Positions 16,520-45,862 of a stretch of 56,763 nt of DNA are shown here, piece after piece; position 1 is the first letter of the stretch; each line of letters starts with the position of its first letter. The stretch lies in contig JANXYV010000159.1 in NCBI GenBank assembly GCA_025355875.1, forward strand, positions 1-56,763, given 5' to 3'. The stretch is from Prolixibacteraceae bacterium (GTDB taxonomy: Bacteria; Bacteroidota; Bacteroidia; Bacteroidales; Prolixibacteraceae). Both the position numbers and the translations under genes were made by a program. The notes beneath the pieces were generated by a model. That model had not been told where the DNA came from, did no database searches, and was given only the letters and a program-made list of their open reading frames with translations.

Positions 16520-16533
16520 AATTCAGAAGAATC

Positions 16534-25818: not shown

Positions 25819-26479
25819 AAAACGGCAACTCGGATTTTATCTCGATTCGGGCGCCTGCATCGGATGCAAGGCTTGCCAAACTGCCTGCAAAGACAAAAAC
25901 GACTTGCCCGTGGGTGTGAACTGGCGGAAGGTGGTCGAATTTACCGGAGGCTCGTGGAAACAGGAAAAGAAAAACCTGGTTCCCGAAAATGTGTTTGCCT
26001 ATTACCTCACCGTTTCGTGCCAGCACTGCGAAAACCCGCCCTGCCTGCCGGTTTGTCCAACTTCGGCCATCACAAAAGACGATGACGGGATTGTTCATAT
26101 CGACCCAAACAAGTGCATGGGTTGTCAATACTGTTCCTGGGCTTGTCCGTATGGCGCGCCGCAGTTTGGGAAAAAGGGAGAACCCATGAGCAAATGCGAT
26201 ATGTGTGCCGACCTGCGCACCATCGACCAGAACCCGGCCTGTGTGGATGCCTGTCCGGTACGGGCTTTGGATTGGGGCGATATGGACGATTTGCGCGAAA
26301 AATATGGAAACGTGGTTGCAGTTGCCCCTCTGCCAGATGGCGCTTATACCAATCCATCGATGATAATTACCCCGCACCGGAAAACAAATCTGCCAGGGTA
26401 TTTTGCCAAACTTCCGGAGAGCGACCCGAAAGGGAAAGATGTAATTGGCCCGAATACAGTAAAATATCAAAAACTATAA
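25811..26479 (+). CDS. dmsB: Four-cluster ferredoxin-like electron-transfer subunit (DmsB-like)
   Basis: A 222-residue iron-sulfur protein with 16 cysteines in four motifs: C16-x2-C19-x2-C22-x3-C26; C70-x2-C73-x4-C78-x3-C82; C102-x2-C105-x2-C108-x3-C112; and C129-x2-C132-x11-C144-x3-C148. This is the DmsB/NrfC pattern for four [4Fe-4S] clusters that carry electrons from the anchor to the molybdoenzyme. Its start lies inside the last codons of dmsA. The C-terminal ~55 residues (MIITPHRKTNLPGYF...) are the usual tail. Confidence 0.92.
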   Translation: MSKKRQLGFYLDSGACIGCKACQTACKDKNDLPVGVNWRKVVEFTGGSWKQEKKNLVPENVFAYYLTVSCQHCENPPCLPVCPTSAITKDDDGIVHIDPNKCMGCQYCSWACPYGAPQFGKKGEPMSKCDMCADLRTIDQNPACVDACPVRALDWGDMDDLREKYGNVVAVAPLPDGAYTNPSMIITPHRKTNLPGYFAKLPESDPKGKDVIGPNTVKYQKL

Positions 26480-27849: not shown

Positions 27850-28027
27850 GGATAGCTTGTAAAAGCAGTCAAAAGCAGTCAATGTTACCGGATTAATTGC
27901 TTTTTCAATTTCAACCCGCTGTCCAGTATTAATATTGAATTCCCAACCTAACATTGTCCTGATTGTTCAATATTGCAACCTCCAGGGAATCAGTCTGCAA
28001 TTATTTGATTCTGTGTATTTTCAGGCG

Positions 28028-28067
28028 TGTAATTTCGTATTACAATTGCGTTTGAAAGTATTACAAT
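28028..28067 (+). promoter_or_regulatory. Candidate AraC-type operator: direct repeats 21 bp apart plus inverted half
   Basis: GTATTACAAT occurs exactly at 28037-28046 and 28058-28067, start to start 21 bases (two helical turns). A third half, TGTAAT at 28028-28033, makes the inverted pair TGTAAT-n5-ATTACA with the first copy. The downstream repeat ends 17 bases before the TATTTTTG box, covering the normal -33 area. Direct repeats about 21 bp apart are typical for AraC-family activators, and an AraC-type gene lies at 39561. That this protein binds here is inference. Confidence 0.5.
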
Positions 28068-28084
28068 GTAGATAGCGTAATGGA

Positions 28085-28092
28085 TATTTTTG
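28085..28092 (+). promoter_or_regulatory. Promoter -7 box TATTTTTG
   Basis: TATTTTTG matches the Bacteroidota -7 consensus TAnnTTTG exactly. No TTTG is found at the right -33 distance (the nearest, 28051-28054, is 30 bases upstream), which fits a promoter needing an activator. It would give a start near 28100, about 50 bases before the ATG at 28151. Confidence 0.5.
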
Positions 28093-28150
28093 AATAATAA
28101 ATAATACTGAACAGCTTTTAATATTTAAACAAATGACTAAGATCTGGAAA

Positions 28151-28270
28151 ATGAGTTTAACACTACATAAGTTACCGTTTTCATTTCTGATAGTTTTTTT
28201 TTCCTTGTTTTTTTTTCTCTTGTACACAGGTCAATATTCATCATTCGAAGTCTATGATTGGATTTGCTGA
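28151..28270 (+). other. Out-of-frame lipoprotein signal peptide upstream of the ceramidase-like gene
   Basis: An ATG at 28151 opens a 39-codon frame beginning MSLTLHKLPFSFLIVFF. It passes through two runs of nine T (28194-28202 and 28208-28216). One base out of step, the same DNA reads ...LFFFSCTQVN and joins directly to MIGFAEINYTP of the next gene. One T fewer in the second run would thus give a full lipoprotein signal (LFFFSC) fused to the hydrolase. As written, the frame ends at 28270. Either a sequencing error in a homopolymer or a phase-variable tract. Confidence 0.65.
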
Positions 28271-29576
28271 AATAAACTATACTCCGGAAGTAGGATTGGA
28301 TCTTGCAGGGAACTATCGTGGCAATGATTATGCCTCACGCGGAGTTCATGATTCTTTATACGCCAGGGCCATTGTAGCATTGGGAGAAACGGGAGAAAAG
28401 GTGGCCATCGTTTCTGTTGATATTTGTGCCTTGAAAAATGATGCGGTTGAATTTATGAGGAAACATATCGCACAAAAAACAGACATCAGGCCCGAAAATA
28501 TAATGATTACCGCTACTCATACACACAGTGGCCCGGTTTCAAACCTGGATGCCCCAAAAGCAAAGGAATACCTTGCAAAAGCTGCGGAAGCAGCGATACT
28601 CGCCAATGAAAGGCTGAAACCTACGGTTCTTTCGGTTGGTCGTGCCACCGAAGACCGGATTTCGCACAACCGGCGATTGAAATGCAAGGATGGAAGCACG
28701 CACATGTGCTGGGAAAAATTTGAGCCGGGATTTGTTATTGAACCCTGGGGGCCGATCGATCCTGAAGTAATAACCATCTCACTTAAACAATCTGGAAATC
28801 AAACTGGGGTGATTGTAAATTTTGGCTGCCATGCCACTACACTGACGGGCAATAACTGGCTGTATTCAGCAGATTTTCCCGGATATCTGGGCGAAGCGCT
28901 CCGGAAAGTAAAAGGAAAGGATTATATCCCGATGTTCTTAAACGGAACCTGCGGAAATGTCACACAAGTGGATTACCGGGTTGGTTTTCCGGATACTTAT
29001 CAGGAATGTCAGCGGATTGGATATATGTTGTCTGTCAGCACGATGGAAGCAATCCAAAACGAAGTGGCAGTAAACAGCAGTGTCGTTAAAGTTTCGAGGG
29101 AAATGGTTGCACTTAAACGAATTACGATTTCGGATCAGCAACTGGAATGGGCCAAAGCGGTAATGAAAAAAGTTGAAAAGGACGGCATGCCTCCTGCGCA
29201 GGCTGATGGAATTCCGGATGCTGAATATGCTGCCGACTGGATCAAAATGCATGAAATTCAGGATCAGGTTGATAGTTTGGAAGTCATGGTTGTTCGAATC
29301 GGCGACATTTCATTTGTTGGCTTGCCTGGCGAAATGTTTTGTGAATTTGGGCTTGATATTAAATCCCGTTCGCCATTCAAAAATACCTTGGTTATGGGTT
29401 TGACCAACGATGATCGCAATTATTTCCCAACCAAAATTTCTTTTACTCAGGGATCAAAAGGTTTTACGCCGATGATTACCGGGTACGAAACTACTCCAGG
29501 TTCAACCATTTATGAAATCGGTGCAGGTGAGAAATTGGTTGAGTCAGCAGTCAATCAATTGAAAAGCCTGTTTTAA
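28254..29576 (+). CDS. Neutral/alkaline ceramidase-family hydrolase, paralogue 2 (start affected by frameshift)
   Basis: The frame from ATG 28254 gives 440 residues that start at once in the family core: FAEINYTPEVGLDLAGNYRG, then the metal motif ATHTHSGP (87-94), and later FGCHATTLTGN and FVGLPGEMFCEFG. The site matching the ceramidase nucleophile reads NGTCGNVTQVD, again without the GDVSPN Ser. There is no signal peptide in this frame, but one lies just upstream one base out of step, so the true product is probably a lipoprotein of about 474 residues starting at 28151. It leads a block of aminotransferase, dehydrogenase, deacetylase and NagB-like genes; an exported amidase releasing an amine or N-acyl sugar for that pathway would fit. 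Confidence 0.82.
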   Translation: MIGFAEINYTPEVGLDLAGNYRGNDYASRGVHDSLYARAIVALGETGEKVAIVSVDICALKNDAVEFMRKHIAQKTDIRPENIMITATHTHSGPVSNLDAPKAKEYLAKAAEAAILANERLKPTVLSVGRATEDRISHNRRLKCKDGSTHMCWEKFEPGFVIEPWGPIDPEVITISLKQSGNQTGVIVNFGCHATTLTGNNWLYSADFPGYLGEALRKVKGKDYIPMFLNGTCGNVTQVDYRVGFPDTYQECQRIGYMLSVSTMEAIQNEVAVNSSVVKVSREMVALKRITISDQQLEWAKAVMKKVEKDGMPPAQADGIPDAEYAADWIKMHEIQDQVDSLEVMVVRIGDISFVGLPGEMFCEFGLDIKSRSPFKNTLVMGLTNDDRNYFPTKISFTQGSKGFTPMITGYETTPGSTIYEIGAGEKLVESAVNQLKSLF

Positions 29577-29651
29577 GTTCAGGAATAATGAAAAACAGAA
29601 GATAAAAATATAAAGAAATAAATTTTTTAAATAACAATCAAAGAAGATATT

Positions 29652-30926
29652 ATGTCAGAAGAATTAGCAATTAATGGCGGCCCTAAAACGGTAACTAGTA
29701 CCAAAATTAACTGGCCTCAATTTGATGAAAATACCATCAAAGCAGTTGAAAACGTTTTACGTTCAGGAAAAGTAAATTATTGGACAGGCAGTAAAGGGAT
29801 GGAATTTGAACAAAAGTTTGCCGACTGGCAAGGCAGCAAATATGCAATTTCGGTTGCCACCGGAACTGCGGCTTTGCATGTTGGTTTAACCGCGATGGGC
29901 ATTGGCCCCGGCGACGAAGTGATTGTTCCGAGCTACACGTTTATCGCGTCAAGTTTTTCCATACTTCAGGCAGGCGCAATCCCCCGGTTTGCTGATGTAA
30001 ATCTGGACGACCACTGTATTAGTGTCGAGTCGGCTGAGAAACTGGTGAACGAACGGACCAAGGCCATTATGGTTGTTCATTTATATGGCAATGTATGCGA
30101 CATGGACAAGATCAATGCTTTTGCCAGGAAACATAATCTGAAAGTGATTGAAGATAATGCCGAAGCGTTTGGCGGATCATACAAAGGTAAAAAAACAGGT
30201 ACTCTGGGAGATATTGCCGGATGTAGTTTTTGCCAGAGCAAGACGTTTACAACCGGTGGTGAAGGTGGAATGGTAACTACCGACAACGAAGAATATGCAT
30301 GGATTGCACGTAGTTTCAGGGATCACGGATATGATGTAAAAAGCCGTTTGTCGCTGCTCGAACTTGAACAAAAGCTTTCGTACATACACAATATGGTAGG
30401 TTTTAATTACCGTATGACCGAAATGCAATCGGCCATGGGAATCTGTGAGCTGGAGCGCATGGAAACCTGGAACATGCCAAACCGCAGAAGAAATGCGCAC
30501 ATCATTATCGATAAAATAAAAGATTTGCCCGCAGTTTTGTACACGCCAATTGATACTCCTGAACGGCAAAATGGCTGGTTTGTGATGGCTTTTTCGCTCG
30601 ATATAGAAAATATGACCTGCGACATCAAGCAATTTGTTGATGCCTGTGGCGCTGAGGGAGCTATGACCTGGAAAGTATTTTGGCCACAATGCCATGTTGA
30701 ACAGGCGTTTCAGCAACATCTGGCTTTTGGAAATTCAGGCTTTCCATTCAAATCAAAAGAATATACCAATCCGGCAAGTGTTGATTATTCCAATGTTGAT
30801 GTCCCGAATGCCAAATGGCACGAAAAACACACTTTTACCTGTTTTGCCTACCCAACTTATACCGTTGAAAATTGCGAACAGATCGGAGATGCACTGCGGA
30901 AAGTAATTCTGGCTTATTCAAAATAA
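29652..30926 (+). CDS. DegT/DnrJ/EryC1/StrS-family PLP aminotransferase
   Basis: A 424-residue cytoplasmic protein. DegT-family features: ATGTAALHVGLTAMGIGPGDEVIVPSYTF (69-97), VIEDNAEAFGG (165-175) with the PLP-binding Asp, and SFCQSKTFTTGGEGGMVTT (192-210) with Lys197 as the Schiff-base residue. This family transfers an amino group to or from keto-sugars or keto-cyclitols. It is followed after 14 bases by a Gfo/Idh/MocA dehydrogenase, the same pair used in kanosamine synthesis (NtdA/NtdC) and in amino-cyclitol pathways. In a catabolic setting it could run in the deaminating direction. Confidence 0.88.
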   Translation: MSEELAINGGPKTVTSTKINWPQFDENTIKAVENVLRSGKVNYWTGSKGMEFEQKFADWQGSKYAISVATGTAALHVGLTAMGIGPGDEVIVPSYTFIASSFSILQAGAIPRFADVNLDDHCISVESAEKLVNERTKAIMVVHLYGNVCDMDKINAFARKHNLKVIEDNAEAFGGSYKGKKTGTLGDIAGCSFCQSKTFTTGGEGGMVTTDNEEYAWIARSFRDHGYDVKSRLSLLELEQKLSYIHNMVGFNYRMTEMQSAMGICELERMETWNMPNRRRNAHIIIDKIKDLPAVLYTPIDTPERQNGWFVMAFSLDIENMTCDIKQFVDACGAEGAMTWKVFWPQCHVEQAFQQHLAFGNSGFPFKSKEYTNPASVDYSNVDVPNAKWHEKHTFTCFAYPTYTVENCEQIGDALRKVILAYSK

Positions 30927-30940
30927 AAGGAGAAACTACC

Positions 30941-31981
30941 TTGAAAAAGATAATAAAATGGGGCGTAATTGGCTCCGGGGGTATCGCACAGCGGAGAACA
31001 ATCCCCGAGGGGATCATTCAGGCAGAACATGCAGGACTGGTGGCCGTTTACGATATTCATCAGGAAGTGAACCTTGCCATAGCCGCGAAGTTTGGGGCAA
31101 AAGCAGTTGAAAGTATCCCTGAACTTTTAGCATCAGATATTGATGCGGTTTATGTTGCCTCTCCGGTAAACCTGCACCTTGAGCATGTGATAGCCTGTGC
31201 CAAAGCAAGGAAGCATATTTTTTGCGAAAAACCACTGGGAATGACGGTTGACGAAGCCGAAGCCATGATTAAATACTGCGAACACGAAGGAGTATATCTG
31301 GGAACCGGGCTGATGATGCGGTTTCTGGCACAACATCAGGCAGCGCTGAAACTGATTCAGGAAGGGAAGTTGGGTAAGCCAGTTTACGGCAGGGCACAGT
31401 TGTCGTGCTGGTATCCACCAATTGAAGGAGCATGGAGGCAAGATCCGGCTGTTGGCGGGGGCGGCTCGTTAATGGATATGGGCAGCCATTGCATCGACCT
31501 GCTTGAAATGTTTTTTGGCCCCGTAAAAAGTGTGAGTTGCTTTATTAGCAACAGTGTTCATGCTTATCCGTCGGAAGATGCTGCGATTGTTTCACTGATT
31601 TTTCAAAATGGAGCTTTGGCAACGGTTGATTCCTGTTTCTGTATTCCGGATAACAGCAGCAAAAATATTCTTGAACTTTATGGTTCTAATGGCAGTATCC
31701 TTGCGAAAGGGACGATAGGACAGGGAACTTCAGGAGAAATGACAGCATATCTGGAAAATGGTGCTGGTGAATACGATGCCAGTCAGGTAAGAACTGATGG
31801 TAATGGTTTTTCTGTTTCGCCTGAACCGGTAAATACCTACATGGCCGAAATTGAAGAATTCAGCTGTGCCATTCTTGAAAAACGGCAACCTTCGAACAAT
31901 GCTGCACTCGGACTGCAAAGTCAAAAGGTATTGACAGCCTGTTATTTGTCAGCAAGCGCCGGTAAGGTAATTGAAGTATAA
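30941..31981 (+). CDS. Gfo/Idh/MocA-family NAD(P)-dependent sugar dehydrogenase
   Basis: A 346-residue cytoplasmic enzyme. The TTG at 30941 is chosen because an AGGAG lies eight bases before it and the product starts right at the Rossmann fold (IKWGVIGSGGIA); a longer frame starting at 30872 would overlap the aminotransferase. The family motif CEKPLGMTVDEAE with Lys97 is at 95-107, and GGGGSLMDMGSHCIDLL supplies the usual catalytic-domain His. The enzymes oxidise a sugar or cyclitol hydroxyl, often at C3. With the aminotransferase just upstream it suggests handling of a 3-amino or 3-keto sugar, as inference. Confidence 0.9.
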   Translation: MKKIIKWGVIGSGGIAQRRTIPEGIIQAEHAGLVAVYDIHQEVNLAIAAKFGAKAVESIPELLASDIDAVYVASPVNLHLEHVIACAKARKHIFCEKPLGMTVDEAEAMIKYCEHEGVYLGTGLMMRFLAQHQAALKLIQEGKLGKPVYGRAQLSCWYPPIEGAWRQDPAVGGGGSLMDMGSHCIDLLEMFFGPVKSVSCFISNSVHAYPSEDAAIVSLIFQNGALATVDSCFCIPDNSSKNILELYGSNGSILAKGTIGQGTSGEMTAYLENGAGEYDASQVRTDGNGFSVSPEPVNTYMAEIEEFSCAILEKRQPSNNAALGLQSQKVLTACYLSASAGKVIEV

Positions 31982-31992
31982 ATGAATTGAAT

Positions 31993-32751
31993 ATGGAAAA
32001 GATTGTTTTAGGAATATTTGCACATCCGGATGATTGCGAGATTGTTTGCGCCGGAACTTTATCGTTGCTGAAAAATGCCGGGTGGACAGTCCATATTGCC
32101 ACTTTGGCGCCCGGAGACAAAGGTACCGCTGAGTACAACCGCGAAGATATTACCCGCATCCGGAAAGCCGAAGCCGCCGAAGCCGCTAAACTGCTCGATG
32201 CAACCTATCATTGCCTCGATTACGAAGATGTTTACATCATGTACGACAGGCATTCGGTGAACAAAACAACTTCACTGATCCGTCAGGTCAAACCTTCACT
32301 GGTTTTTACACATAATCCGAGCGATTACATGGTTGACCATGAAACAACCAGCAAGATTGTCCAGACCGCTTGTTTCTCAACAGGCATTATGAACCTTGAA
32401 ATTCCGGAAGCTATTTATGAACCCGTTCCATTCCTTTATTATTGCGACTCGATGGAAGCAAAAGATATATTGGGTCGGCCAATTTACACGACCATGTTCG
32501 CTGATATTTCCAGCGAAATTTCGGTGAAGGAGAAAATGCTTACCTGCCATGCCAGTCAGCGGAACTGGCTGCTTACCCATCATAAAATGGACGAGTATGT
32601 TCATTCAATGAAGAGGTTTGGGGAGCAGCGCGGAAAGGAAATCAATGTGGCTTTTGCCGAAGGTTTCAGGCAACACCTGGGACACGGGTATGCACAGAAT
32701 AATTTTCTGAAAGAGATTCTGGGCGATGCAATTACTCTCGTAAAGAATTAA
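31993..32751 (+). CDS. PIG-L/LmbE-family N-deacetylase
   Basis: A 252-residue cytoplasmic protein; the ATG at 31993 is preferred over a TTG two codons earlier. The zinc-binding motif AHPDDCEI follows directly after the start (residues 10-17), and the later VFTHNPSDYMVDHETTSKIV contains the His-x-x-His region of the family. PIG-L enzymes remove acetyl groups from GlcNAc-type amides such as GlcNAc-inositol and N-acetyl sugars. It lies 11 bases after the dehydrogenase and 21 before the NagB-like gene, so it is very probably part of the same pathway. Confidence 0.9.
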   Translation: MEKIVLGIFAHPDDCEIVCAGTLSLLKNAGWTVHIATLAPGDKGTAEYNREDITRIRKAEAAEAAKLLDATYHCLDYEDVYIMYDRHSVNKTTSLIRQVKPSLVFTHNPSDYMVDHETTSKIVQTACFSTGIMNLEIPEAIYEPVPFLYYCDSMEAKDILGRPIYTTMFADISSEISVKEKMLTCHASQRNWLLTHHKMDEYVHSMKRFGEQRGKEINVAFAEGFRQHLGHGYAQNNFLKEILGDAITLVKN

Positions 32752-32772
32752 AAAATAATAACTAGCAAAACT

Positions 32773-33705
32773 ATGTCAAGAAAATTAAGCATGTTGGCTC
32801 CTGAATGGTGGGACTTTACCACTTTGGAGGACGATTTACTGAACGATGCGGCAAAACTTTCGTTGAAAGATATGCTGCAATTGTCGAGGCCTGGCTTTAA
32901 TGTCGTGTTCTACGACACTTTGGAAGATTTTTATATGGCCGAAGCGTTGGAATACATTACCGCATGGAAACAAGCCACAGCAAGCAATCCGGTGGGTATT
33001 TGCGGACCGATTGGCCCAACCGAGCAGTTGCCCCTGGTTGCCCGTCTGGTGAATGAATTGCGCCTCGATTTGTCGAACGCTCATTTTTGGGGTATGGATG
33101 AATGGTATGTCGATGGTAAAGAATTGGAAGCGACACATCCTATTTCATTCGAAAAGGCTGACAGGGATTTATGTTTTAACCGGATTGACCCGAAGTTGAG
33201 GATTCCGGAAGCAAATCTTCATTTTCCAAAAGCTGATACTAGCAATTATATTAAAAGCTGGGAAAGTGGAGTTCGTTGCGCGGTGATGCAAGGCGGACAG
33301 GGCGATACCAAACACTGGGCATTCAATGATCCATTCCGGAGAGATGGTAAATACAAGGATGCACCGCCTACTCCTGAAGAATTCAGGAAACTGACTACCC
33401 GTGTAGTTGATCTGCACCCGATCACCTGTATGCAGAATGCCCGTACAAGCGCCGGTGGAGTGGTGATTGGTATTCCAAGACAAGCGCTGACTGTTGGACC
33501 GGTTCAAACATGGAAAGCCGATAAAGTTTCGATCTGGCAGGCCGGAGCGCACGATAACCCATTTGGGCAGCGCCTGACCGCTTTGATGATCAGCAAGGGA
33601 ATTCAGGATAGCGCCGTACCCATGTCGTTACTTGGCGGACATCCAAATGTTCAATTCAACTATTATACCGGTGGTATTGGCGTTTGCGAAACTGAGATGC
33701 ATTAA
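32773..33705 (+). CDS. NagB-like glucosamine-6-phosphate deaminase/isomerase homologue, altered active site
   Basis: A 310-residue cytoplasmic protein with the NagB/RpiA-type fold: [18 protein letters not shown] in the phosphate-loop position, [11 protein letters not shown] (105-115, with Asp109 matching Asp72 of E. coli NagB), [15 protein letters not shown] (173-187). In NagB the latter is GGVGNDGHIAFNEP, with the Asp141-His143-Glu148 triad; here the Asp is Thr179, His181 is kept and Glu is Asp186. A region near the end, [11 protein letters not shown], replaces the NagB lid/allosteric motif. It is likely a related sugar-phosphate enzyme with a different substrate or reaction. A terminator follows it. 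Confidence 0.82.
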
Positions 33706-33734
33706 TAAGCACAGAAATATTGTAAAGCGCTTTT

Positions 33735-33772
33735 TTTTTCATTGAGTGGAATTTTAGTTAGGTTTAGTTACG
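33735..33772 (+). repeat. Dispersed terminator-linked module, copy A
   Basis: TTTTTCAT-TGA-GTGGA-AT-TTTAGTTAG (33735-33761) matches, with five extra bases, TTTTTCAT-GTGGA-TTTAGTTAG at 48640-48661. Each copy is followed by a strong terminator hairpin. No protein frame explains the match. Confidence 0.45.
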
Positions 33773-33805
33773 GTTGGCTCAGGAATTTTCTTGAGCCAAC
33801 TTTTT
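33773..33805 (+). terminator. Rho-independent-type terminator
   Basis: GTTGGCTCA (33773-33781) pairs fully with TGAGCCAAC (33792-33800), with extra pairing in the loop, and is followed by TTTTT. It separates the NagB-like gene from the CBM9-like gene. Confidence 0.75.
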
Positions 33806-33828
33806 AACAATCAAGCAATTAAAAACTG

Positions 33829-34575
33829 ATGAAATTTAGAATAAGAATTACCGTTGTTGTCGCTTTTTGCGCACTCACTACTTTGGGAATAAAAAATCAA
33901 ACTATGAAGAAAGATTCTGAATACAAAGTCGCCAGGTTGGAAAAGTCCATTACCATCAATGCAGATTGGAACAAATCCGAATGGCAAAACGTGGAAGCCC
34001 TTCAACTGGAAAATTTTATGGGCGAAGCCCCAAAGTTCAAACCGGGGGTGAAGGTGAAAATGATGTATGATGACAACAATTTGTATGTTATTTTTCGGGT
34101 TGAGGATCATTACGTCCGGTGTGTGGTCAAAGAGATTAATGGCCCGGTTTACGAAGATGCCTGTGTCGAATTCTTCTTTTCGCCGGATAAAAATTCGCCA
34201 TTAAAATATTTTAACCTTGAAACCAATTGTGGTGGCACAGCCCTGATGTTTTACAACCGGATTCCCCGGAAAGATTATAAAATACTTCAGCCTGAAGATA
34301 TCCGAACAATCGAAATTGCACATTCAATGCCCGAAATTGTAGATCCTGAGATCACTCAACCAATTATCTGGACACTCGAATACCGCTTGCCCATTGCGCT
34401 CCTGAAAAAATATGCGACTGTTAGTCAGCCTGCCCCGGGAGTGGTTTGGAAAGGCAATTGCTATAAAATTGGGGATAAAACCTCCAACCCGCATTATCAG
34501 ACCTGGTCATTGGTCGATCAGGCCGAACCCGATTTTCATCTGCCACAGTTTTTTGGAAACCTTATTTTTCAATAG
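33829..34575 (+). CDS. CBM9-like carbohydrate-binding protein, exported
   Basis: A 248-residue protein with a short hydrophobic start (RITVVVAFCALTTLG), probably a signal peptide, followed by a CBM9-like (DOMON-type) jelly-roll: SITINADWNKSEWQNVEALQLENF, KMMYDDNNLYVIFRVEDHYVRC, and VEFFFSPDKN. This family binds sugars or heme in other contexts and is common in Bacteroidota glycan loci. It starts a second transcription block after the terminator and is 22 bases upstream of a permease, so it may supply the permease with substrate. Confidence 0.78.
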   Translation: MKFRIRITVVVAFCALTTLGIKNQTMKKDSEYKVARLEKSITINADWNKSEWQNVEALQLENFMGEAPKFKPGVKVKMMYDDNNLYVIFRVEDHYVRCVVKEINGPVYEDACVEFFFSPDKNSPLKYFNLETNCGGTALMFYNRIPRKDYKILQPEDIRTIEIAHSMPEIVDPEITQPIIWTLEYRLPIALLKKYATVSQPAPGVVWKGNCYKIGDKTSNPHYQTWSLVDQAEPDFHLPQFFGNLIFQ

Positions 34576-34597
34576 GGTATCCGTCAATCGTCAGTAA

Positions 34598-35977
34598 ATG
34601 AGCCAACAAGAAAATCTCTCCCAACTCGCTGCTTCGCCTGAAATTCCCCGGCTAAAACGTGTATTGGGTTTATGGGATTTGATTTTTTATGGTATCGTGC
34701 TTATTCAACCGATTGCGGCAGTTGGTTTGTTCGGTATTGCATCGCAGGTATCCCGCGGCCACATGGTCACCACCTTGCTGATTGCCATGTTTGGAATGAT
34801 GCTCACTGCCATCAGTTATGGACGGATGGCTTCTTCATTTCCTTCAGCCGGTTCGGCCTACACCTATGTTGGCAAAGGGCTGAATTTACACTTGGGTTTT
34901 CTGGCTGGCTGGGTCATGTTTCTCGATTATCTGATCGTTCCCATTATCAATACCGTTTACGCATCATTGACATTACAGAGATTAATGCCTACTGTTCCGT
35001 TTTTTGCATGGGTGTCTTTGTTTGTTATCGCCATCACGCTTGTAAACCTTCGGGGTATTCGCACCACAGCCCGTTCGAACGAAATTTTACTTGCTGTAAT
35101 GTGCGTGGTTATTGGTATTTTCATTGTACTGGCCATCCGGTATATTTTCCAGGAACAGAGTTGGAGCGGACTGTTTTCGTACAAACCACTTTATAATCCT
35201 GAAACCTTTAATCTGGGCGCGATTATGACAGCAACCTCCTTTGCAGCCCTTACCTATATTGGGTTCGATGGGGTTACAACCCTTTCGGAAGATGTAAAAA
35301 ATCCGAAAAGGAACATGTTGCTGGCTCCCATGCTGGTTTGTTTATTTACCGGCTTGTTTAGCGGATTGCAGATCTATCTGGCACAACAGGTCTGGCCCGA
35401 TTATACGACTTTTGCAAATCCTGAAACCGCTTTTTTCGATGTTTCGGCGAGGATAGGGGGGCAGTTTCTGTTCAATGCAATTGCAATAACTCTCTTTATA
35501 GCCTGTCTGGGGAGCGGAATTGCAGGGCAGTTTGGCGCGGCCCGTTTGCTTTTTGCGATGGGTCGCGATGGTGTAATCCCTAAAAAACCGTTCTCTCATC
35601 TACATGCCAAAAGTTCAACCCCAAGCTATAATATACTTTTTATGGGGGTACTGACCCTGTTTGGTTCTTTGATCCTGAGTTATCAGGGGGCAGCCGAATT
35701 ACTGAATTTTGGCGCTTTTCTGGCATTCATGGGAGTTAATATTGCCGCTTTCAGGCAATTTTATTTTCTTCGCCCGATGGAAGAAAAAAGTAATTTAATC
35801 GTTGACGCGATTATCCCGGTGTTGGGTTTTCTGGTTTGTTTCCTAATCTGGATCAGCCTGCCAACTCCTTCAAAAATCATAGGTGGTATCTGGTTGTTTG
35901 CCGGATTGATCTATTTGTTCTTTAAAACTGACGGATTTAAAGTAAGACCGGAAACTATCGACTTTAAAGAGATATAA
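34598..35977 (+). CDS. APC-superfamily amino acid/amine permease
   Basis: A 459-residue inner-membrane protein with about 12 transmembrane helices. APC features: GLWDLIFYGIVLIQPIAAVGLFG near the start, SYGRMASSFPSAGSAYTYVGKG in the substrate-binding helix region, TYIGFDGVTTLSEDVKNPKRNM, and ARLLFAMGRDGVIPKKPFSHL. The closest type by eye is the putrescine/amino-acid importer group. Between a sugar-binding protein and an epimerase, kinase and polyol dehydrogenase, it suggests uptake of an amine-bearing sugar compound; in E. coli the fructoselysine permease FrlA is also an APC protein beside a PfkB kinase. This parallel is inference. Confidence 0.9.
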   Translation: MSQQENLSQLAASPEIPRLKRVLGLWDLIFYGIVLIQPIAAVGLFGIASQVSRGHMVTTLLIAMFGMMLTAISYGRMASSFPSAGSAYTYVGKGLNLHLGFLAGWVMFLDYLIVPIINTVYASLTLQRLMPTVPFFAWVSLFVIAITLVNLRGIRTTARSNEILLAVMCVVIGIFIVLAIRYIFQEQSWSGLFSYKPLYNPETFNLGAIMTATSFAALTYIGFDGVTTLSEDVKNPKRNMLLAPMLVCLFTGLFSGLQIYLAQQVWPDYTTFANPETAFFDVSARIGGQFLFNAIAITLFIACLGSGIAGQFGAARLLFAMGRDGVIPKKPFSHLHAKSSTPSYNILFMGVLTLFGSLILSYQGAAELLNFGAFLAFMGVNIAAFRQFYFLRPMEEKSNLIVDAIIPVLGFLVCFLIWISLPTPSKIIGGIWLFAGLIYLFFKTDGFKVRPETIDFKEI

Positions 35978-35991
35978 ACTGTGCTTTTTTT

Positions 35992-36032
35992 AAGCCTTCC
36001 CGGTTTTACCGGGAGAGGTTTATAGAGGGCTT
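35992..36032 (+). repeat. GC-rich palindromic repeat, copy 2 (intergenic)
   Basis: AAGCC (35992-35996) and GGCTT (36028-36032) form the outer stem, with TTCCCGGT/ACCGGGAG (35997-36004 / 36008-36015) as an inner hairpin. It has the same plan as the copy at 7041-7076 (outer AAGCC...GGCTT, a GAGGTTT spacer and an AG.GGG run). It lies between the permease and epimerase genes and may act as a weak terminator or mRNA stabiliser. Confidence 0.7.
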
Positions 36033-36046
36033 CTAATACTAAACCG

Positions 36047-37069
36047 ATGAAACGAAACGAATTGCTTAATCACATTGGAAATCAGGCTCAGCTTGGCGGA
36101 AGCCGGCATTATGTGCTTGCCGATGGCTGGAGCCGCAACCTTCGGGGAATTGATGTAAACTCAGGAAGTGGCCTGCAATATACCATTTTGCCCGATCGGG
36201 GAATGGATATTTCGCTGGCCAGTTACAAAGGAATAAATCTGGTTTACCTGACCTGCAGCGGCGAAACCCATCCGGCATTTTTTGAACCCGAAAATTTTGG
36301 ATGGCTCCGGACTTTTACTGCCGGATTACTCACTACCTGCGGTTTGACCTACCTGGGAGCGCCGGTTACTGATGGAAACGAGCAACTTGGACTTCACGGT
36401 AGATATTCGACCATTCCGGCCAAACAAGTGGCTGATTTATCCGGGTGGATTGGCGATGAATATCACATCAAAATCAGAGGAACAGTTGAAGAAGCATCGA
36501 TGTTTGGCCACAAATTGCGATTGGTGAGGCAGATCGAAACGATTCAGGGACAAAACAGTCTCCGGATTACCGATACGGTGACTAATTTCGGCTGTTCACC
36601 AAGTCCTTATACCATTCTATATCACATGAATCTTGGATATCCATTATTAAATGAAAATGCTGAATTGCTGATCGAACCCCTTCATTCCGATCCAAAAACG
36701 GATCATGCCAGATCAGGATTGGGCGAATTCCGGAAATTTTTACCCCCAACAGCTGGTTTTCAGGAACAAGTTTATACTCATACCATGCAGGCTGGCGCTG
36801 ATGGTGAAACTTCAGCAACCTTGCAGAACAAAAAACTTGGAATGGCTCTGACTATTAAATTCAATATTAAACAACTGCCGTATCTGGTGCAATGGAAAAT
36901 GATGGGCCAGTGCGAATATGTACTTGGACTTGAGCCAAGTAATGTGCCGCTGAAAAACCGGAAAGAATTGCGCGATGAAAATATACTGCCAGTTCTTAAT
37001 CCGGGTGAAACTGCAATCAATACCATCGAGGTGGTTTTAACCGATATACAAAAATGCTATGATTACTGA
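36047..37069 (+). CDS. DUF4432 aldose-epimerase-like protein
   Basis: A 340-residue cytoplasmic protein of the galactose-mutarotase fold: TILPDRGMDISLASYKGINLVYL (45-67), FFEPENFGWLRTFTAGLLTTCGLTYLG (79-106), ELGLHGRYSTIPA and YTILYHMNLGYPLLNENAELLIEP. This matches the DUF4432 family, seen beside sugar kinases and dehydrogenases in several pathways; the substrate is not known. The next gene starts 11 bases before its stop, showing translational coupling. Confidence 0.85.
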   Translation: MKRNELLNHIGNQAQLGGSRHYVLADGWSRNLRGIDVNSGSGLQYTILPDRGMDISLASYKGINLVYLTCSGETHPAFFEPENFGWLRTFTAGLLTTCGLTYLGAPVTDGNEQLGLHGRYSTIPAKQVADLSGWIGDEYHIKIRGTVEEASMFGHKLRLVRQIETIQGQNSLRITDTVTNFGCSPSPYTILYHMNLGYPLLNENAELLIEPLHSDPKTDHARSGLGEFRKFLPPTAGFQEQVYTHTMQAGADGETSATLQNKKLGMALTIKFNIKQLPYLVQWKMMGQCEYVLGLEPSNVPLKNRKELRDENILPVLNPGETAINTIEVVLTDIQKCYDY

Positions 37070-38261
37070 AAAGATTATTATCTCTGGAACTGGTTGTGCG
37101 CTTGCCGATTACCTGTATAATGACATATCGTTTGAAAGTCCTGAATTCAAAAAATACCTTTCAAAAAAAACCGGTGACGGCGGTTTAGGTGCGGGGAAAC
37201 TGGTTTTTACTGAAGAACTTGAGAAGTTTGCTGGCAAGTCCTATCAAAAAATCATCAGTGATATAATCGGAAACCGCGCTCCTGATGCATTTAATGTTGG
37301 GGGTCCATCGCTGGTTTCTTTGATCCACGCCTCACAAATGCTAGACCGTAATAGTTTCAATGTAAAGTTTTTTGGAATTTCGGGTACTGATGAAACTGCC
37401 GACCGGATTTTAGGGATACTCTGCCCAATGCCCCTAAATATCAGGAATTACTCCACTACAATTCATCGGGCAACGCCTTTCACTCATGTTTTCTCTGATC
37501 CAAATTTTGACAACGGCCAGGGAGAACGGACTTTTGTAAATAGCATCGGGGCTGCCTGGGAATATTTTCCACAGCAGTTGACACGTGAGTTTTATGATTC
37601 GCACATTGTTTGCTTTGGTGGCACTGCTTTGGTTCCGCAACTGCATGACAACCTGACCCAACTTTTGAAAAAAGCTAAAAAAAACAACTGTATCACGGTT
37701 GTGAATACTGTTTATGATTTCAGAAATGAGAAAAATAAGCCCGGAGAATCATGGCCACTGGTCGATCAGGAAGAAAATTATGATTTAATCGACGTTCTGA
37801 TTATGAGCGCAGAAGAGGCCAAGAAAATCAGCGGGAGGGAAACCATTCATGAGGCGGCCAGCTATTTTGTTTCGACCAAAGTTTCATCGTTTATCATTAC
37901 CAACGGTGCGAACGAATTGATAGGCTGGTCGCAGGGCAGATTATTCCAAAAGTCTGAACTCATAAGCTTGCCGGTTTCTCAAAAAGTGACTGAAGAACTG
38001 AAATCGGCTACTTCGCAAAAGGGAGATACCACCGGTTGTGGAGATAATTTAGTCGGTGGCATTATTTCCTCCATTGCCTGGCAACTTAAAGATCGGGAAA
38101 GAGGTGATTTTGATCTGATTGAAGCACTTTCCTGGGGTATTGCTTCAGGAGGTTTTTGTTGTTTTACCGTTGGCGGTACTTATATAGAACGTACAAACGG
38201 TGAAAAGAGAACTGCCGTGGAACAAATACAAAAAGAGTATATCAAACAGATCAATCCATGA
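37059..38261 (+). CDS. PfkB-family carbohydrate kinase
   Basis: A 400-residue cytoplasmic kinase. PfkB features: NVGGPSLVSLIHASQML (79-95) with the GG substrate loop, MSAEEAKKISGRETI for the family NxxE-like region, and the anion-hole/catalytic motif KGDTTGCGDNLVGG with Asp329 as the likely base. Compared with common PfkB sugar kinases (about 300-330 residues) it is long, with an N-terminal extension of ~75 residues. It overlaps the epimerase gene by 11 bases and the dehydrogenase gene by four, so the three are made together and likely act on consecutive intermediates. Confidence 0.85.
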   Translation: MITEKIIISGTGCALADYLYNDISFESPEFKKYLSKKTGDGGLGAGKLVFTEELEKFAGKSYQKIISDIIGNRAPDAFNVGGPSLVSLIHASQMLDRNSFNVKFFGISGTDETADRILGILCPMPLNIRNYSTTIHRATPFTHVFSDPNFDNGQGERTFVNSIGAAWEYFPQQLTREFYDSHIVCFGGTALVPQLHDNLTQLLKKAKKNNCITVVNTVYDFRNEKNKPGESWPLVDQEENYDLIDVLIMSAEEAKKISGRETIHEAASYFVSTKVSSFIITNGANELIGWSQGRLFQKSELISLPVSQKVTEELKSATSQKGDTTGCGDNLVGGIISSIAWQLKDRERGDFDLIEALSWGIASGGFCCFTVGGTYIERTNGEKRTAVEQIQKEYIKQINP

Positions 38262-39463
38262 CCGAAAAAATCAGGCAGGATAAAATAGTCATTTTTGGCG
38301 CTGGAAAAATAGGAAGGTCGTTCATTGGCCAGCTTTTTAGCAGAGGTGGCTACGAGATTGTTTTTGTCGATGTTTTTAAGTCGCTTATTGATGAACTGAA
38401 TATTCGGGGAAATTACAAGGTGATCATCAAATCAGAACAGGAAGAAATACTTGTGATTACCAATGTAAGAGGGGTGCATGTTGACGATTCGGAAAACGTT
38501 GCTTTCGAGGTTGCCACTGCTGATATAGTAGCAGTTTCAGTCGGATTGCATGGATTGAAAGACATTATGCCATTGCTGGCAAAGGGTTTGCAACAAAGAT
38601 TCGCAATCGACAAACATTCAGCCTTAGATATTATTATTGCCGAAAACATGCGCAATGCCGACACCTTTTTTCGCGAAGAACTCGGAAAGGTTTTGCCTGA
38701 AGATTATCCTCTGGAAACGTTGGTTGGACTGGTTGAAACAAGTATAGGAAAAATGGTTCCAATCATGTTGAAAAAGGACATGGAGGAAGATATTTTGCAG
38801 GTGTTTGCCGAACCCTATAACACGCTGATCCTTGACAAGAAAGCGTTTAAAAATACGATTCCGCAAATTGATGGTTTATCGCCTAAAGTGAATATGAAAG
38901 CCTGGGTCGACCGTAAATTATTCATTCACAATTTAGGCCATGCAGCCACTGCCTACATAGGTTATTTGTATAATCCCGGATTTATTTATTTGTACGAAGC
39001 GCTTGCAGTGCAAGATGTACATGATCTGGTGCGGGAAACGATGGAGCAATCTGCTGATATTTTGATGCAAAAATATCCCGAAGAATTCTCAAAAGAAGAT
39101 TTAACTAATCACATCACCGATTTACTTGAACGTTTTCAGAATAAAGCGCTTGGAGATACTATTTATCGGGTAGGTTGCGATTTAATCCGGAAACTTGGTC
39201 CTGAAGACCGATTGTCGGGTGCGATCAGAGCAGCTATTCTGTATGACCTTCCCTATTCAAAGATACTTTATTCATTACTTTGCGGTTTTCATTTCAGAGC
39301 ATTTGATGAGAATAGCAAGATGTTGCCTCAGGATCTTGAATTCGTTCAGTTTTATAAAAAAGGAATTGAGTATGTTTTGACTTCAATTTGTGGTTTTGAC
39401 CCAGTTCAGGATAGTCACTTATATGAAAATGCAAGGGCAATTGACGAAGAATTATCGATTTAG
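38258..39463 (+). CDS. Mannitol-1-phosphate-5-dehydrogenase-like polyol-phosphate dehydrogenase
   Basis: A 401-residue NAD-dependent enzyme of the polyol-specific long-chain dehydrogenase family. The Rossmann motif VIFGAGKIGRSFIGQ is at 11-25. The catalytic set Lys220-x4-Asn225-x2-His228 (in DRKLFIHNLGHAATAYIGY) matches the Lys-Asn-His of mannitol dehydrogenases. AENMRNADTFF (128-138) is another conserved segment. MtlD-type enzymes interconvert mannitol-1-phosphate and fructose-6-phosphate, which would give the cluster an entry to glycolysis. The start overlaps the kinase stop in ATGA. Substrate inferred. Confidence 0.88.
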   Translation: MTEKIRQDKIVIFGAGKIGRSFIGQLFSRGGYEIVFVDVFKSLIDELNIRGNYKVIIKSEQEEILVITNVRGVHVDDSENVAFEVATADIVAVSVGLHGLKDIMPLLAKGLQQRFAIDKHSALDIIIAENMRNADTFFREELGKVLPEDYPLETLVGLVETSIGKMVPIMLKKDMEEDILQVFAEPYNTLILDKKAFKNTIPQIDGLSPKVNMKAWVDRKLFIHNLGHAATAYIGYLYNPGFIYLYEALAVQDVHDLVRETMEQSADILMQKYPEEFSKEDLTNHITDLLERFQNKALGDTIYRVGCDLIRKLGPEDRLSGAIRAAILYDLPYSKILYSLLCGFHFRAFDENSKMLPQDLEFVQFYKKGIEYVLTSICGFDPVQDSHLYENARAIDEELSI

Positions 39464-39560
39464 ACAAATATTTTTTTTTAGAAAATAATTTCAGGAATTT
39501 TATATTTCCGTTTGTTAGTTAAAATGATTCTGGATCATTCTATTTTAAAGGTTGACTATT

Positions 39561-40439
39561 ATGAAACTTGAGAATATCAGATTAATACAAGAGCCTGGAA
39601 AATCATTCATAGTTTATCACGAAACGCATCCTTTTTCCAGGTATCATAACCATCCCGAAATTGAACTTGTCTTGATACTGAAAGGAAAAGGAAAACGGAT
39701 TGTTGGCGATCACATCGACCGGTTTAAAAAGAATGACCTGGTATTGGTTGGTCAATATCTGCCTCATGAATGGTATTGTGACCGTGAATACTATGAGCAT
39801 CCTGATGGTTTTCAGGGAGAAGGTATTGTTTATCAGTTTGTTAGTGATTTTTTGGGCTCAAAATTTTTCGAAATTCCTGAAAACACAAGTTTAAAGCGAC
39901 TGTTGGACGAATCAAACCGGGGATTAAAATTTCATGGGAAAACAAAAGAGAAAATCATTGAGTTGATGGTTCAAAACTATGAACACGATGGCATTGACCG
40001 CTTGTATTCACTTTTCTCCATCTTCAGGATTCTTTCCAAAACTAAAGAATATACCTGTCTTTCCAGTAATGGATTTATGGAGCCATTTCATATCGAAGGG
40101 AATCAACCCATGCAAAAAGCGCTTGAATATATCCATCAAAATTTTCACCGGGAAGTTTCAATGAAGGAATTGCTAAGTGTTACGAGTATGTCGAATACTG
40201 CCTTTTGTATGGCATTTAAAAAAATGTACCGAATGACTTTTAAGGAATATTTACTGAATACCAGAATTGGCTATGCTTGTAAATTGTTATCGGATGACAC
40301 ATTAAATATCTCCCAAATAGCCTACAACTCGGGTTTTGAAAACATATCCAATTTCAACCGGCAATTTAAAAAACTGAAGGGTATAACTCCTTCTCAATTT
40401 CAGAATAAGCTGGAGTCTGACAAGAAGGCTTCAGCGTAA
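39561..40439 (+). CDS. AraC-family transcriptional regulator with cupin-type sensor domain
   Basis: A 292-residue cytoplasmic regulator; the ATG at 39561 is chosen over a TTG three codons earlier. The N-terminal half (about 15-80) is an AraC-binding cupin: HPFSRYHNHPEIELVLILKGKG and DLVLVGQYLPHEW. The C-terminal ~100 residues form the double HTH: ALEYIHQNFHREVSMKELLSVTSMSNTAFCMAFKKMYRMTFKEYL and ISQIAYNSGFENISNFNRQFKKLKGITPSQF. It lies 97 bases after the catabolic cluster and is a natural candidate to control it; direct repeats 21 bp apart before 28151 could be its site. Confidence 0.9.
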   Translation: MKLENIRLIQEPGKSFIVYHETHPFSRYHNHPEIELVLILKGKGKRIVGDHIDRFKKNDLVLVGQYLPHEWYCDREYYEHPDGFQGEGIVYQFVSDFLGSKFFEIPENTSLKRLLDESNRGLKFHGKTKEKIIELMVQNYEHDGIDRLYSLFSIFRILSKTKEYTCLSSNGFMEPFHIEGNQPMQKALEYIHQNFHREVSMKELLSVTSMSNTAFCMAFKKMYRMTFKEYLLNTRIGYACKLLSDDTLNISQIAYNSGFENISNFNRQFKKLKGITPSQFQNKLESDKKASA

Positions 40440-40485: not shown

Positions 40486-41121
40486 TTGAAAGAGGGTAAT
40501 GAGCATTTGTTAGCATTGAAATCAGGAAGCGAAAAGGCTTTCCGAACGATTATGGACCACTGGTATTCACGCCTCTTTAATTTTGCAAATGGGTACCTGA
40601 AAAATGTGGAAGACTCAAAAGAAGTTCTTCAGGATGTTTTTCTTAGTTTATGGGATCACCGAGCCAATCTTGCGCACAATACCAATCTTAATGCCTACTT
40701 ATACACACTAACCAGGAACCGTTGCATTGACCTGATCAGAAAGGAAAGGCTTATCCTTCAATTCCGCACCGATAAACAGGAGGAATATAGCCGCCTAACC
40801 AAAAATTTCGAAGCATTATCAGATCCCATTCTGGATGAGATTTTCGCCAGGGAAATTGAGGTTGAGATATACCGCGCTGTTAATAAATTACCAGAACAAT
40901 GTCGGAAGGTTTTTACTTTGAGCCGCCGAAATGGATTAAAAAACAGGGAAATAAGTGCAACTCTTGAGCTTTCTGAAAAAACTATCGAGAGCCATCTATC
41001 AAAAGCCCTTAAAACGATCAGGAAGGCACTCGAACGAAAGTTTCCTGAAACTCTCCTATTGATAACCATTATTAGCCGGCGAATTGGTTTAATTTCAGGC
41101 ATTAATGACTTTAAAGATTGA
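40486..41121 (+). CDS. ECF-type RNA polymerase sigma factor
   Basis: A 211-residue sigma-70-family factor of the type that pairs with FecR-like anti-sigma factors in Bacteroidota. Region 2 is seen in FNFANGYLKNVEDSKEVLQDVFLSLWDH and NLNAYLYTLTRNRCID; region 4 in LPEQCRKVFTLSRRNGLKNREISATLELSEKTIESHLSKALKTIRKAL. The start is taken as TTG at 40486, since the first in-frame ATG is ~23 residues inside region 2. It starts 46 bases after the AraC gene and is followed by the anti-sigma factor, so signals sensed by the SusC of this locus likely reach it. Confidence 0.88.
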   Translation: MKEGNEHLLALKSGSEKAFRTIMDHWYSRLFNFANGYLKNVEDSKEVLQDVFLSLWDHRANLAHNTNLNAYLYTLTRNRCIDLIRKERLILQFRTDKQEEYSRLTKNFEALSDPILDEIFAREIEVEIYRAVNKLPEQCRKVFTLSRRNGLKNREISATLELSEKTIESHLSKALKTIRKALERKFPETLLLITIISRRIGLISGINDFKD

Positions 41122-41258
41122 ACTTGACTGATCTCTGTTGCCTCGTAAAATCTCAGTTCAGTATTAAAATTCACTTTTTTTCTAAAATATTAGAAAAATA
41201 TTAAATCTGGCTAAGGGTATTTTCGAGTCGGTTCGTTTATCTTTATATACACAAGAAA
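41122..41258. other. Short sigma/anti-sigma intergenic spacer
   Basis: AT-rich spacer of 137 bp. It holds an inverted repeat TTCTAA (41180-41185) / TTAGAA (41190-41195) and, just before the anti-sigma gene, TATCTTTA at 41238-41245, which is close to the TAnnTTTG -7 box. No gene seen. Confidence 0.35.
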
Positions 41259-42245
41259 ATGACTGATGAAATTTTATTCAAATTCATTTCTGGACAGGCT
41301 TCTCCTTCAGAAATAGAACAGGTATATGAATGGGCTCATGCTTCTGAAGAACGTAATCAGGAACTGATCCGTTTGAAGAATATCTGGATTATTTCCGGAA
41401 TTGAAAATGAGATGGACAGCGATTTTAAAAATCAGGAGATCGACCGGATATTGAATATGGTTCGGGGATTAATCATTAAAGACCAGAAAAAAATAATCCG
41501 TATCCGTTGGATGAAATATGCGGCTACAGTCCTTCTCATCATTGGCTTGTCAGGAACAGCAGGTTATTTCATTTCCAGATCAAACTATCAATCAACCAAA
41601 CTTTTTACAGAGATAATAGTTAAGAAAGGCGAGCGCTCAACCGTTGTGCTTCCCGATGGTTCAACGGTTCAGTTGAACAGCGATTCGCGCCTGAAGTTTC
41701 TTTCATCGTTTAACTCCGGAAATCGGCGGGTTACTCTTGAAGGTGAAGGGCTTTTTGAGGTTAAGCACGATGAAGCACTCCCGTTTATTGTTGAAACACC
41801 CAGTTTTAGTATTGAAGATTTGGGTACAGTCTTTAATGTGAGTTGTTATCCGAACGACCAGATCGAGACCGCTTTTTTAGAAATTGGAAAGGTGAAGATT
41901 AGTCACGCAAAAAATGAAGATATATTTCTGAATCCCAATGAAGCATTCTCCTACAATAAAATCACGCACGAATCGGTAAAAACAACAATACAAACCAAAC
42001 GCCTAACCGACTGGGCAAAAGGCTTTTTGACCATTGAAGGTGAAACCATCGGTGAGCTGGCAAAGAAACTTGAACGGAAATACAATATCCATATCGTTTT
42101 TAAAGACGAGGAAGTGAAGCAACACATCTATTCGGGTACAATTAAAGATGAAGATGTAAATACAGTACTCGAAGCATTGATTTTTGCTTCTTCCATAAGA
42201 TATGTACGTGACAAGGACACCATCATTTTGTCTTCGAAGCGTTAA
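41259..42245 (+). CDS. FecR-family anti-sigma factor (inner-membrane)
   Basis: A 328-residue inner-membrane protein. The first ~85 residues are the cytoplasmic sigma-binding part; a transmembrane helix follows at about 87-105; the periplasmic FecR domain has TEIIVKKGERSTVVLPDGSTVQLNSDSRL (about 117-146) and GEGLFEVKHDEALPFIVETPSF; the C-terminal DUF4974 domain is at ~250-318 (LAKKLERKYNIHIVFKDEEV). It is expected to hold the ECF sigma factor until the STN domain of the neighbouring SusC signals that ligand is bound. Confidence 0.92.
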   Translation: MTDEILFKFISGQASPSEIEQVYEWAHASEERNQELIRLKNIWIISGIENEMDSDFKNQEIDRILNMVRGLIIKDQKKIIRIRWMKYAATVLLIIGLSGTAGYFISRSNYQSTKLFTEIIVKKGERSTVVLPDGSTVQLNSDSRLKFLSSFNSGNRRVTLEGEGLFEVKHDEALPFIVETPSFSIEDLGTVFNVSCYPNDQIETAFLEIGKVKISHAKNEDIFLNPNEAFSYNKITHESVKTTIQTKRLTDWAKGFLTIEGETIGELAKKLERKYNIHIVFKDEEVKQHIYSGTIKDEDVNTVLEALIFASSIRYVRDKDTIILSSKR

Positions 42246-42251
42246 AAAAAT

Positions 42252-42285
42252 AACCGGAAAATGTTTGCAGCATTTCCCGGTTTTA
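42252..42285 (+). terminator. Terminator-like hairpin between anti-sigma and SusC genes
   Basis: AACCGGAAAATG (42252-42263) pairs with CATTTCCCGGTT (42271-42282), one mismatch, followed by a few T. It splits the regulatory pair from the SusC gene, which then needs its own promoter. A further short stem, GTGCCC (42304-42309) / GGGCAC (42327-42332), lies in the SusC leader. Confidence 0.55.
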
Positions 42286-42363
42286 ATGCAATAATTAATT
42301 ATCGTGCCCATTGATTAGCCGTCGGAGGGCACAAAGTTTAACTACCAAAAACTTTTCAAATTT

Positions 42364-45819: not shown

Positions 45820-45862
45820 TCGGATAATCAGTATCATTTTTAATAAATTAAAACATGAAATT

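Follow-up and report, generated by a model that had tools for sequence, protein, structure and literature searches.

Positions 28254-39463 of a 56,763-nucleotide stretch of DNA from a Prolixibacteraceae bacterium (Bacteroidota; GenBank assembly GCA_025355875.1, contig JANXYV010000159.1), hereafter the window, carry ten co-directional genes on the + strand, one of which encodes a divergent relative of the glucosamine-6-phosphate deaminase NagB. The ten genes that an original prediction, made without database searches, had described here are all present, and nine of the encoded proteins pass Pfam gathering cut-offs, confirming their families; the exception is the NagB-like protein. Intergenic spacing runs from -11 to +123 nt, values that depend on the start codons chosen, and a 404-nt gap precedes the first gene. 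The genome that holds the window (G000) measures 5.2 Mb and is 97.9% complete. We tentatively read the run as a single operon for breaking down an N-acetylated 2-amino hexose, or a compound derived from one, in which the hexosamine is deaminated before it is phosphorylated, a reading with nearly an even chance of being right. The genes, together with a putative regulator that follows them, are:

28254..29576, + strand: ceramidase-like amidase (neutral/alkaline ceramidase N-terminal family; PF04734 Ceramidase_alk, 58.6 bits)
29652..30926, + strand: DegT-family pyridoxal phosphate (PLP) aminotransferase (PF01041, 316.8 bits)
30872..31981, + strand: Gfo/Idh/MocA NAD-dependent oxidoreductase (PF01408, 92.6 bits; PF22725; PF02894), start codon uncertain, conserved portion from about 30938
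31987..32751, + strand: PIG-L-type de-N-acetylase (PF02585, 96.8 bits, gathering 28.2), the open reading frame (ORF) opening at TTG 31987 and the searches taking ATG 31993
32773..33705, + strand: NagB-like protein, predicted divergent hexosamine deaminase (AlphaFold/Foldseek fold match)
33829..34575, + strand: CBM9-like protein (PF16011 CBM9_2, 121.2 bits)
34598..35977, + strand: APC-superfamily permease (PF13520 AA_permease_2, 109.7 bits)
36047..37069, + strand: DUF4432 protein (PF14486, 325.8 bits)
37059..38261, + strand: PfkB-family kinase, fructokinase-like (PF00294, 48.5 bits)
38258..39463, + strand: mannitol-1-phosphate 5-dehydrogenase-like protein, MtlD (PF01232 Mannitol_dh, 116.1 bits; PF08125 Mannitol_dh_C, 81.8 bits)
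39552..40439, + strand: AraC-type regulator (an ORF, its family named from the sequence and not from Pfam)

The NagB-like protein gave no Pfam match at an E-value of 0.001 and scores 27.3 bits to TIGR00502 (nagB), short of the cut-off of 236.9. Its AlphaFold model (predicted local distance difference test, pLDDT, 90.2) is predicted to adopt the NagB/6-phosphogluconolactonase fold: the best Foldseek match of this predicted model in the PDB is the glucosamine-6-phosphate deaminase 5hj5 (E 1.1e-16), and deaminases rank above lactonases among the matches. For the active site, a profile alignment joined 45 of the 81 NagB-like sequences (from 80 loci and the window) to 12 canonical NagBs; in the Escherichia coli enzyme we take D72, D141, H143 and E148 to be catalytic and Lys208 and R172 to bind phosphate. 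The D72, H143 and R172 columns are identical in 45/45 NagB-like proteins, and the E148 column holds Asp in all 45. Lys208, found in 12/12 canonical NagBs, pairs with Asp261 in 45/45 NagB-like proteins by an ungapped extension of the profile alignment, which itself ends two residues earlier. These changes favour, without proving, an unphosphorylated sugar as the substrate.

Relatives of the NagB-like protein number at least 569 in the genome collection; we describe the best 80, a choice that skews identities and counts towards close relatives. Identity in these 80 is 70-88%, and their record titles name Bacteroidota, Balneolota, Planctomycetota, Verrucomicrobiota, Omnitrophota, Poribacteria, Chloroflexota and Armatimonadota. 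Among 149 genomes, ten besides the window's carry the protein at 80-88% identity, and the DNA of one copy (G080) is >99% identical to that of locus L074, Mariniphaga anaerophila by title (G and L numbers are our genome and locus identifiers). The NagB-like proteins are a separate family present in several phyla. The family is also more constrained than its PIG-L neighbour, median identity to the window over 48 locus rows (two duplicate pairs included, best PIG-L per locus) being 77% for the NagB-like protein vs 57% for PIG-L. The gene is split into two frames in L041 (G037) and in L081, and one part of the G037 copy holds 2 TAA.

Neighbourhoods were read by tblastn in 89 distinct loci (80 + 11 minus 2 duplicates, L070 and L074; the window not counted), since gene calling had missed the NagB-like gene in GC-rich loci. 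Where the upstream sequence extends to 700 nt or more (83 loci), 60 loci have a same-strand PIG-L gene no further than 1 kb upstream, and at L111 one adjoins the NagB-like gene on the opposite strand. DUF4432 and MtlD each occur near the NagB-like gene in 16 loci, CBM9 (within 4 kb) in 4 and a strong ceramidase-like match in 2; a weaker Gfo match stands directly upstream in 15/89. GH109 is a family of NAD-using glycosidases, and GH109-like proteins encoded near the operon at L034:13553-14965 and L039:539-1969 hint at N-acetylhexosaminide substrates. At L071:11073-11726 a protein with a HigB-type toxin-antitoxin domain is encoded between the NagB-like and CBM9 genes.

Across 25 loci of relatives with a window-type PfkB, the gene directly upstream encodes D-lyxose isomerase in 20, an APC permease in three, the NagB-like protein in one and a second type of NagB in one. 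As PfkB-MtlD is mostly tied to D-lyxose isomerase in relatives, the pair points to mannose and fructose. Strong matches to GH92 or GH38 mannosidases (>1000 bits) in 8/20 of the isomerase loci, including the query source L047, fit a mannose-to-fructose step; the NagB-like loci hold a single weak match to these families (187 bits, L133). DUF4432, presumably aldose-epimerase-like, is also near in 7/20 isomerase loci. No D-lyxose isomerase was found in the 97.9% complete genome of the window, where the NagB-like protein appears to take the isomerase's place, an exchange suggesting that both enzymes deliver fructose. The original prediction had missed both this tie to D-lyxose isomerase and the standing of the NagB-like proteins as a separate, multi-phylum family.

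In a kinase tree from an alignment of 23 of the 26 relatives (L050, L052 and L074 excluded), the four NagB-linked kinases fall in two separate parts, beside kinases linked to D-lyxose isomerase, a position that makes the same kinase substrate likely; the starred branches require two or more changes, and the fork holding the window is weakly supported. Fructokinase (NF006957) is the commonest curated name, matched by 23 of 24 PfkBs scanned at E <=0.001 (best E 4e-11); the window's kinase scores 20.6 bits against it and does not reach the cut-off of 450. Within the 149 genomes, PfkB is present in 10/11 NagB-like carriers vs 13/138 non-carriers (Fisher p 1e-8, kinship ignored) and, with the window's genome left out, in 9/10 carriers (p 6e-8, kinship likewise ignored). 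MtlD matches both of its Pfam domains, and its best curated match is mannitol-1-phosphate dehydrogenase (NF002646, 245.5 bits, below the cut-off of 368); the dehydrogenase types of L090 and L091, the other two that were scanned, share this best curated match.

Fifteen of the 89 loci, all Planctomycetota by title, bring PIG-L, NagB-like, PfkB, DUF4432 and MtlD together; their kinase and dehydrogenase belong to the same families as the window's, with only remote similarity, and 12 of the 15 have a xylose-isomerase-like match within 3 kb. Other loci join the two halves in other ways: the NagB-like gene directly adjoins PfkB-MtlD (L040) or APC and then PfkB (L039), or occurs in the orders NagB-APC (L034), NagB, CBM9, APC (L071) and NagB, SSS carrier, PfkB (L075). 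Since these loci join the NagB-like gene to APC, PfkB and MtlD, the two halves look like one module. The original prediction had drawn two adjoining blocks; its genes stand, but the division does not, for the run is co-directional throughout and genes of the two blocks adjoin directly elsewhere. The association appears to exceed chance, as judged from neighbours that recur in other genomes. The original prediction would have been refuted had its genes not kept company elsewhere; groups of them do, although the full set of ten was seen only in the window.

The front of the run is conserved in its own right. The five genes from the ceramidase-like gene to the NagB-like gene recur in L038 (G103, another family) and in L071, with 68-84% identity gene by gene. 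DegT, Gfo, PIG-L and NagB-like genes are found together in L034 and L077 (Balneolales by title) and also in L075, where DegT is cut by the contig end. A window-type DegT (>840 bits) occurs in 3/149 genomes; besides the window's these are G086 and G103, and the gene always belongs to this cluster. The protein is 82-88% identical in four full-length homologues, and Lys197, which we take from the motif to be the PLP lysine, is invariant in 5/5. For Gfo, the nearest solved structure by sequence is 1,5-anhydro-D-fructose reductase (130.7 bits). The ceramidase-like protein is 69-71% identical to its same-cluster homologues in L038 and L071 and matches the PF04734 domain, with 36.7 bits to neutral ceramidase NF041649 (cut-off 1200, not reached); as an amidase it would probably N-deacylate the substrate. 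Its ORF in the window has no in-frame signal peptide, unlike the L038 and L071 homologues. At window positions 28100-28260 it begins past their signal-like N-terminus, with two long T runs just upstream and a signal-peptide-like reading in another frame; the 5' end may reflect an assembly slip or a genuine frameshift. A second, more remote ceramidase-like gene lies at 16516-17976 (PF04734, 25.9 bits, below the cut-off of 32.1), and L039, L071 and L075 likewise hold several. The transporters vary between loci, since APC, SSS (L075), MFS (L115) and EamA types all occur, the last directly upstream of Gfo in L073, L085 and L087.

In the usual bacterial route for amino sugars, phosphorylation precedes deamination. 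Starting from the gene set, its conservation, and the predicted fold and residue changes of the NagB-like protein, all demonstrated here, we infer the substrates of a route in the reverse order. The CBM9-like protein is presumed to be exported and to bind sugar, and the APC permease, presumed to be an importer, would bring in the compound. The ceramidase-like protein, DegT and Gfo might convert it to a plain N-acetylhexosamine, as would happen if they took off a second amino group and then reduced the ketone left behind. PIG-L, to judge from its family, would take the acetyl group off the unphosphorylated sugar; the NagB-like protein would act on the free hexosamine, either glucosamine or mannosamine, deaminating and isomerising it to give D-fructose and ammonia; and PfkB would yield fructose-6-phosphate. 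MtlD might interconvert this with mannitol-1-phosphate and could thereby act as a redox or osmolyte outlet; DUF4432 could be a mutarotase or epimerase. Catabolism of an amine-bearing sugar by uptake, deacetylation, deamination, phosphorylation and entry to glycolysis, as originally predicted, thus survives in outline; the order of steps given there does not.

Several observations weigh against this reading. Within the active site, the Lys208/Asp261 pairing depends on the extended alignment described above; the column of the presumed catalytic Asp141 holds Ile in 30, Val in 8, Thr in 6 and Ala in 1 of the 45 NagB-like proteins; and R172, kept in 45/45, would leave the phosphate site at most half altered. 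The Asp141 change was dropped as evidence, since this Asp is missing from NagB-PIG-L fusions of relatives as well (Thr in L014, Ser in L013; by eye). These fusions are 662 aa long (L013:1381-3369, L014:334-2322) and match PF01182 at 72-90 bits and PF02585 at 61-62 bits. They keep the Lys, as does the second NagB family beside PfkB at L058 (both by eye), so a NagB beside PfkB or PIG-L need not imply an unphosphorylated substrate. In 23 of the 83 loci the 1 kb upstream holds no PIG-L gene (16 of the 23 are verrucomicrobial by title, and five, L109, L113, L116, L120 and L127, have one 3-4 kb upstream), and near the NagB-like gene in the 89 loci PfkB occurs only 21 times, strong Gfo ten, DegT five and APC three. 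The proposed pathway, moreover, offers no reason for needing both a fructokinase and a mannitol-1-phosphate dehydrogenase. Finally, NagA, the usual N-acetylglucosamine-6-phosphate (GlcNAc-6-phosphate) deacetylase, is found at E 1e-20 in 10/11 NagB-like carriers vs 39/138 non-carriers (Fisher p 6e-5, kinship ignored), six of the ten above the curated cut-off and four slightly under it. In most carriers, therefore, the module does not replace the usual GlcNAc route but adds to it, and its substrate may be another sugar. The window's genome is the only carrier without NagA (no match above 21.3 bits), and the idea that the NagB-like protein compensates for a missing NagA was dropped, as the other ten carriers all have it. 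A survey of 61 genomes found canonical NagB in the window's genome and, overall, in 4/4 of the NagB-like carriers that it covered.

Of the alternatives, the one that survives best, though we consider it improbable, keeps the usual order of the Nag pathway with other enzymes: PfkB would phosphorylate the amino sugar, PIG-L would deacetylate it and the NagB-like protein would be an unusual deaminase of glucosamine-6-phosphate or an isomer. The best structural matches of the NagB-like protein, deaminases and lactonases alike, are all annotated for phosphorylated sugars, which speaks for this alternative, as do the retained R172 and the existence of fusions that keep the Lys; the invariant Asp in place of Lys208, the same PfkB following D-lyxose isomerase in 20/25 loci and the canonical NagB already in the window's genome argue against it.

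A good deal less probable is that two unrelated operons abut, an amino-sugar block at 28254-33705 and a hexose block at 33829-39463. The largest gap of the run, 123 nt, does fall between them, 24/25 PfkB loci of relatives have no NagB-like gene directly upstream, and in 68/89 NagB-like loci a PfkB gene is absent from the surrounding 5 kb; we nevertheless rejected this as the principal explanation because L034, L039, L040, L071, L075 and the planctomycete operons combine both sets. Scarcely better or worse placed, and also a long shot, is biosynthesis, in which DegT and Gfo would build an amino sugar or aminocyclitol of the kanosamine, 2,3-diamino-glucose or scyllo-inosamine type. The kanosamine and GlcN3N pathways use such pairs for biosynthesis, relatives of this DegT include perosamine and scyllo-inosose aminotransferases, and Gfo scores 83.8 bits to an archaeal UDP-GlcNAc 3-dehydrogenase (cut-off 450). 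Breakdown is nonetheless indicated by NagB, PIG-L, the permease and the fructokinase-like kinase, as well as by glycosidase, creatininase, nitrilase-type and GH109-like genes near some related loci, and Pfam found no nucleotidyl- or glycosyltransferase family above cut-off among the ten proteins. The kanosamine (NtdA/NtdC) analogy of the original prediction was rejected on family scores, NtdA reaching 129 bits vs 242 for 7l7x, the best of the solved DegT enzymes. Its other analogy, use of an Amadori product such as fructoselysine (FrlA/FrlD), is very improbable: APC and PfkB do co-occur, even with no NagB nearby in L042 and L044, but the permease scores 49.7 bits to FrlA (cut-off 800) vs 148.1 to BcaP, the kinase has no FrlD-named NCBIfam match and is mainly tied to D-lyxose isomerase, and Pfam revealed no deglycase family in the ten proteins, so that this reading too was rejected.

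The AraC-type gene begins 88 nt after MtlD and, from its position, possibly regulates the operon; six verrucomicrobial loci (L109, L113, L115, L116, L120, L127) likewise have an AraC match upstream of the NagB-like gene. A Bacteroidota-type promoter pattern, in the form we assume for it, gave 2 matches in the window vs 2.5 expected, none at the operon, and scans for sigma-70 promoters and terminators stayed at chance level. Ahead of the operon (23242-26479) are genes for a molybdopterin oxidoreductase and a 4Fe-4S subunit. Directly after it (40486-47335) come genes for an ECF-type sigma factor, FecR, a TonB-dependent receptor and SusD, the usual composition of a polysaccharide utilisation locus.

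Much carbon and nitrogen is stored as amino sugars in soils, sediments and guts. The most valuable part of the finding is the NagB-like family, widespread and strongly conserved: that a family conserved between phyla should have neither a Pfam match nor a curated name above cut-off is a clear gap. We would go further only with some diffidence, for it is rather doubtful, if possible, that the NagB-like protein is a new deaminase for unphosphorylated hexosamine, that PIG-L, NagB-like protein and ketohexokinase form a further general route for N-acetylated amino sugars across Bacteroidota, Balneolota, Planctomycetota, Verrucomicrobiota and other phyla, and that DegT and Gfo are an add-on feeding in diamino or otherwise modified sugars. 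If the protein does deaminate free hexosamine, amino-sugar turnover as read from many planctomycete and verrucomicrobial genomes would change. Literature searches, at the level of titles and abstract openings, brought up no description of this gene set or of a NagB acting on free hexosamine.

Among known systems, the NtdABC kanosamine and FrlABD fructoselysine pathways share with the window only the superfamilies DegT/Gfo and APC/PfkB, and the window's proteins have no specific match to either. The mannose module of relatives (D-lyxose isomerase, PfkB, MtlD) is much nearer, with 43-60% identity for PfkB and 51-67% for MtlD, but the window has PIG-L and the NagB-like protein instead of the isomerase. 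The NagB-PIG-L fusions combine the same two families; theirs is a canonical-like NagB domain with Lys, whereas the window has two genes and a remote NagB. Canonical NagB shares with the NagB-like protein the predicted fold and D72, H143 and R172, with E148 as Asp in the latter. It differs in the Lys208 that an invariant Asp replaces and in length (266 aa in E. coli, 310 aa here); the NagB-like protein scores 27 bits on its model against a cut-off of 237, and the two coexist in the window's genome. In the archaeal chitin pathway (Thermococcus Dac/GlmA/GlmD), PIG-L-type deacetylation is followed by a glucosamine kinase and then a SIS-type deaminase. There, as in the route proposed here, deacetylation precedes phosphorylation, but in the window a protein of the NagB fold apparently uses the sugar in its free form.

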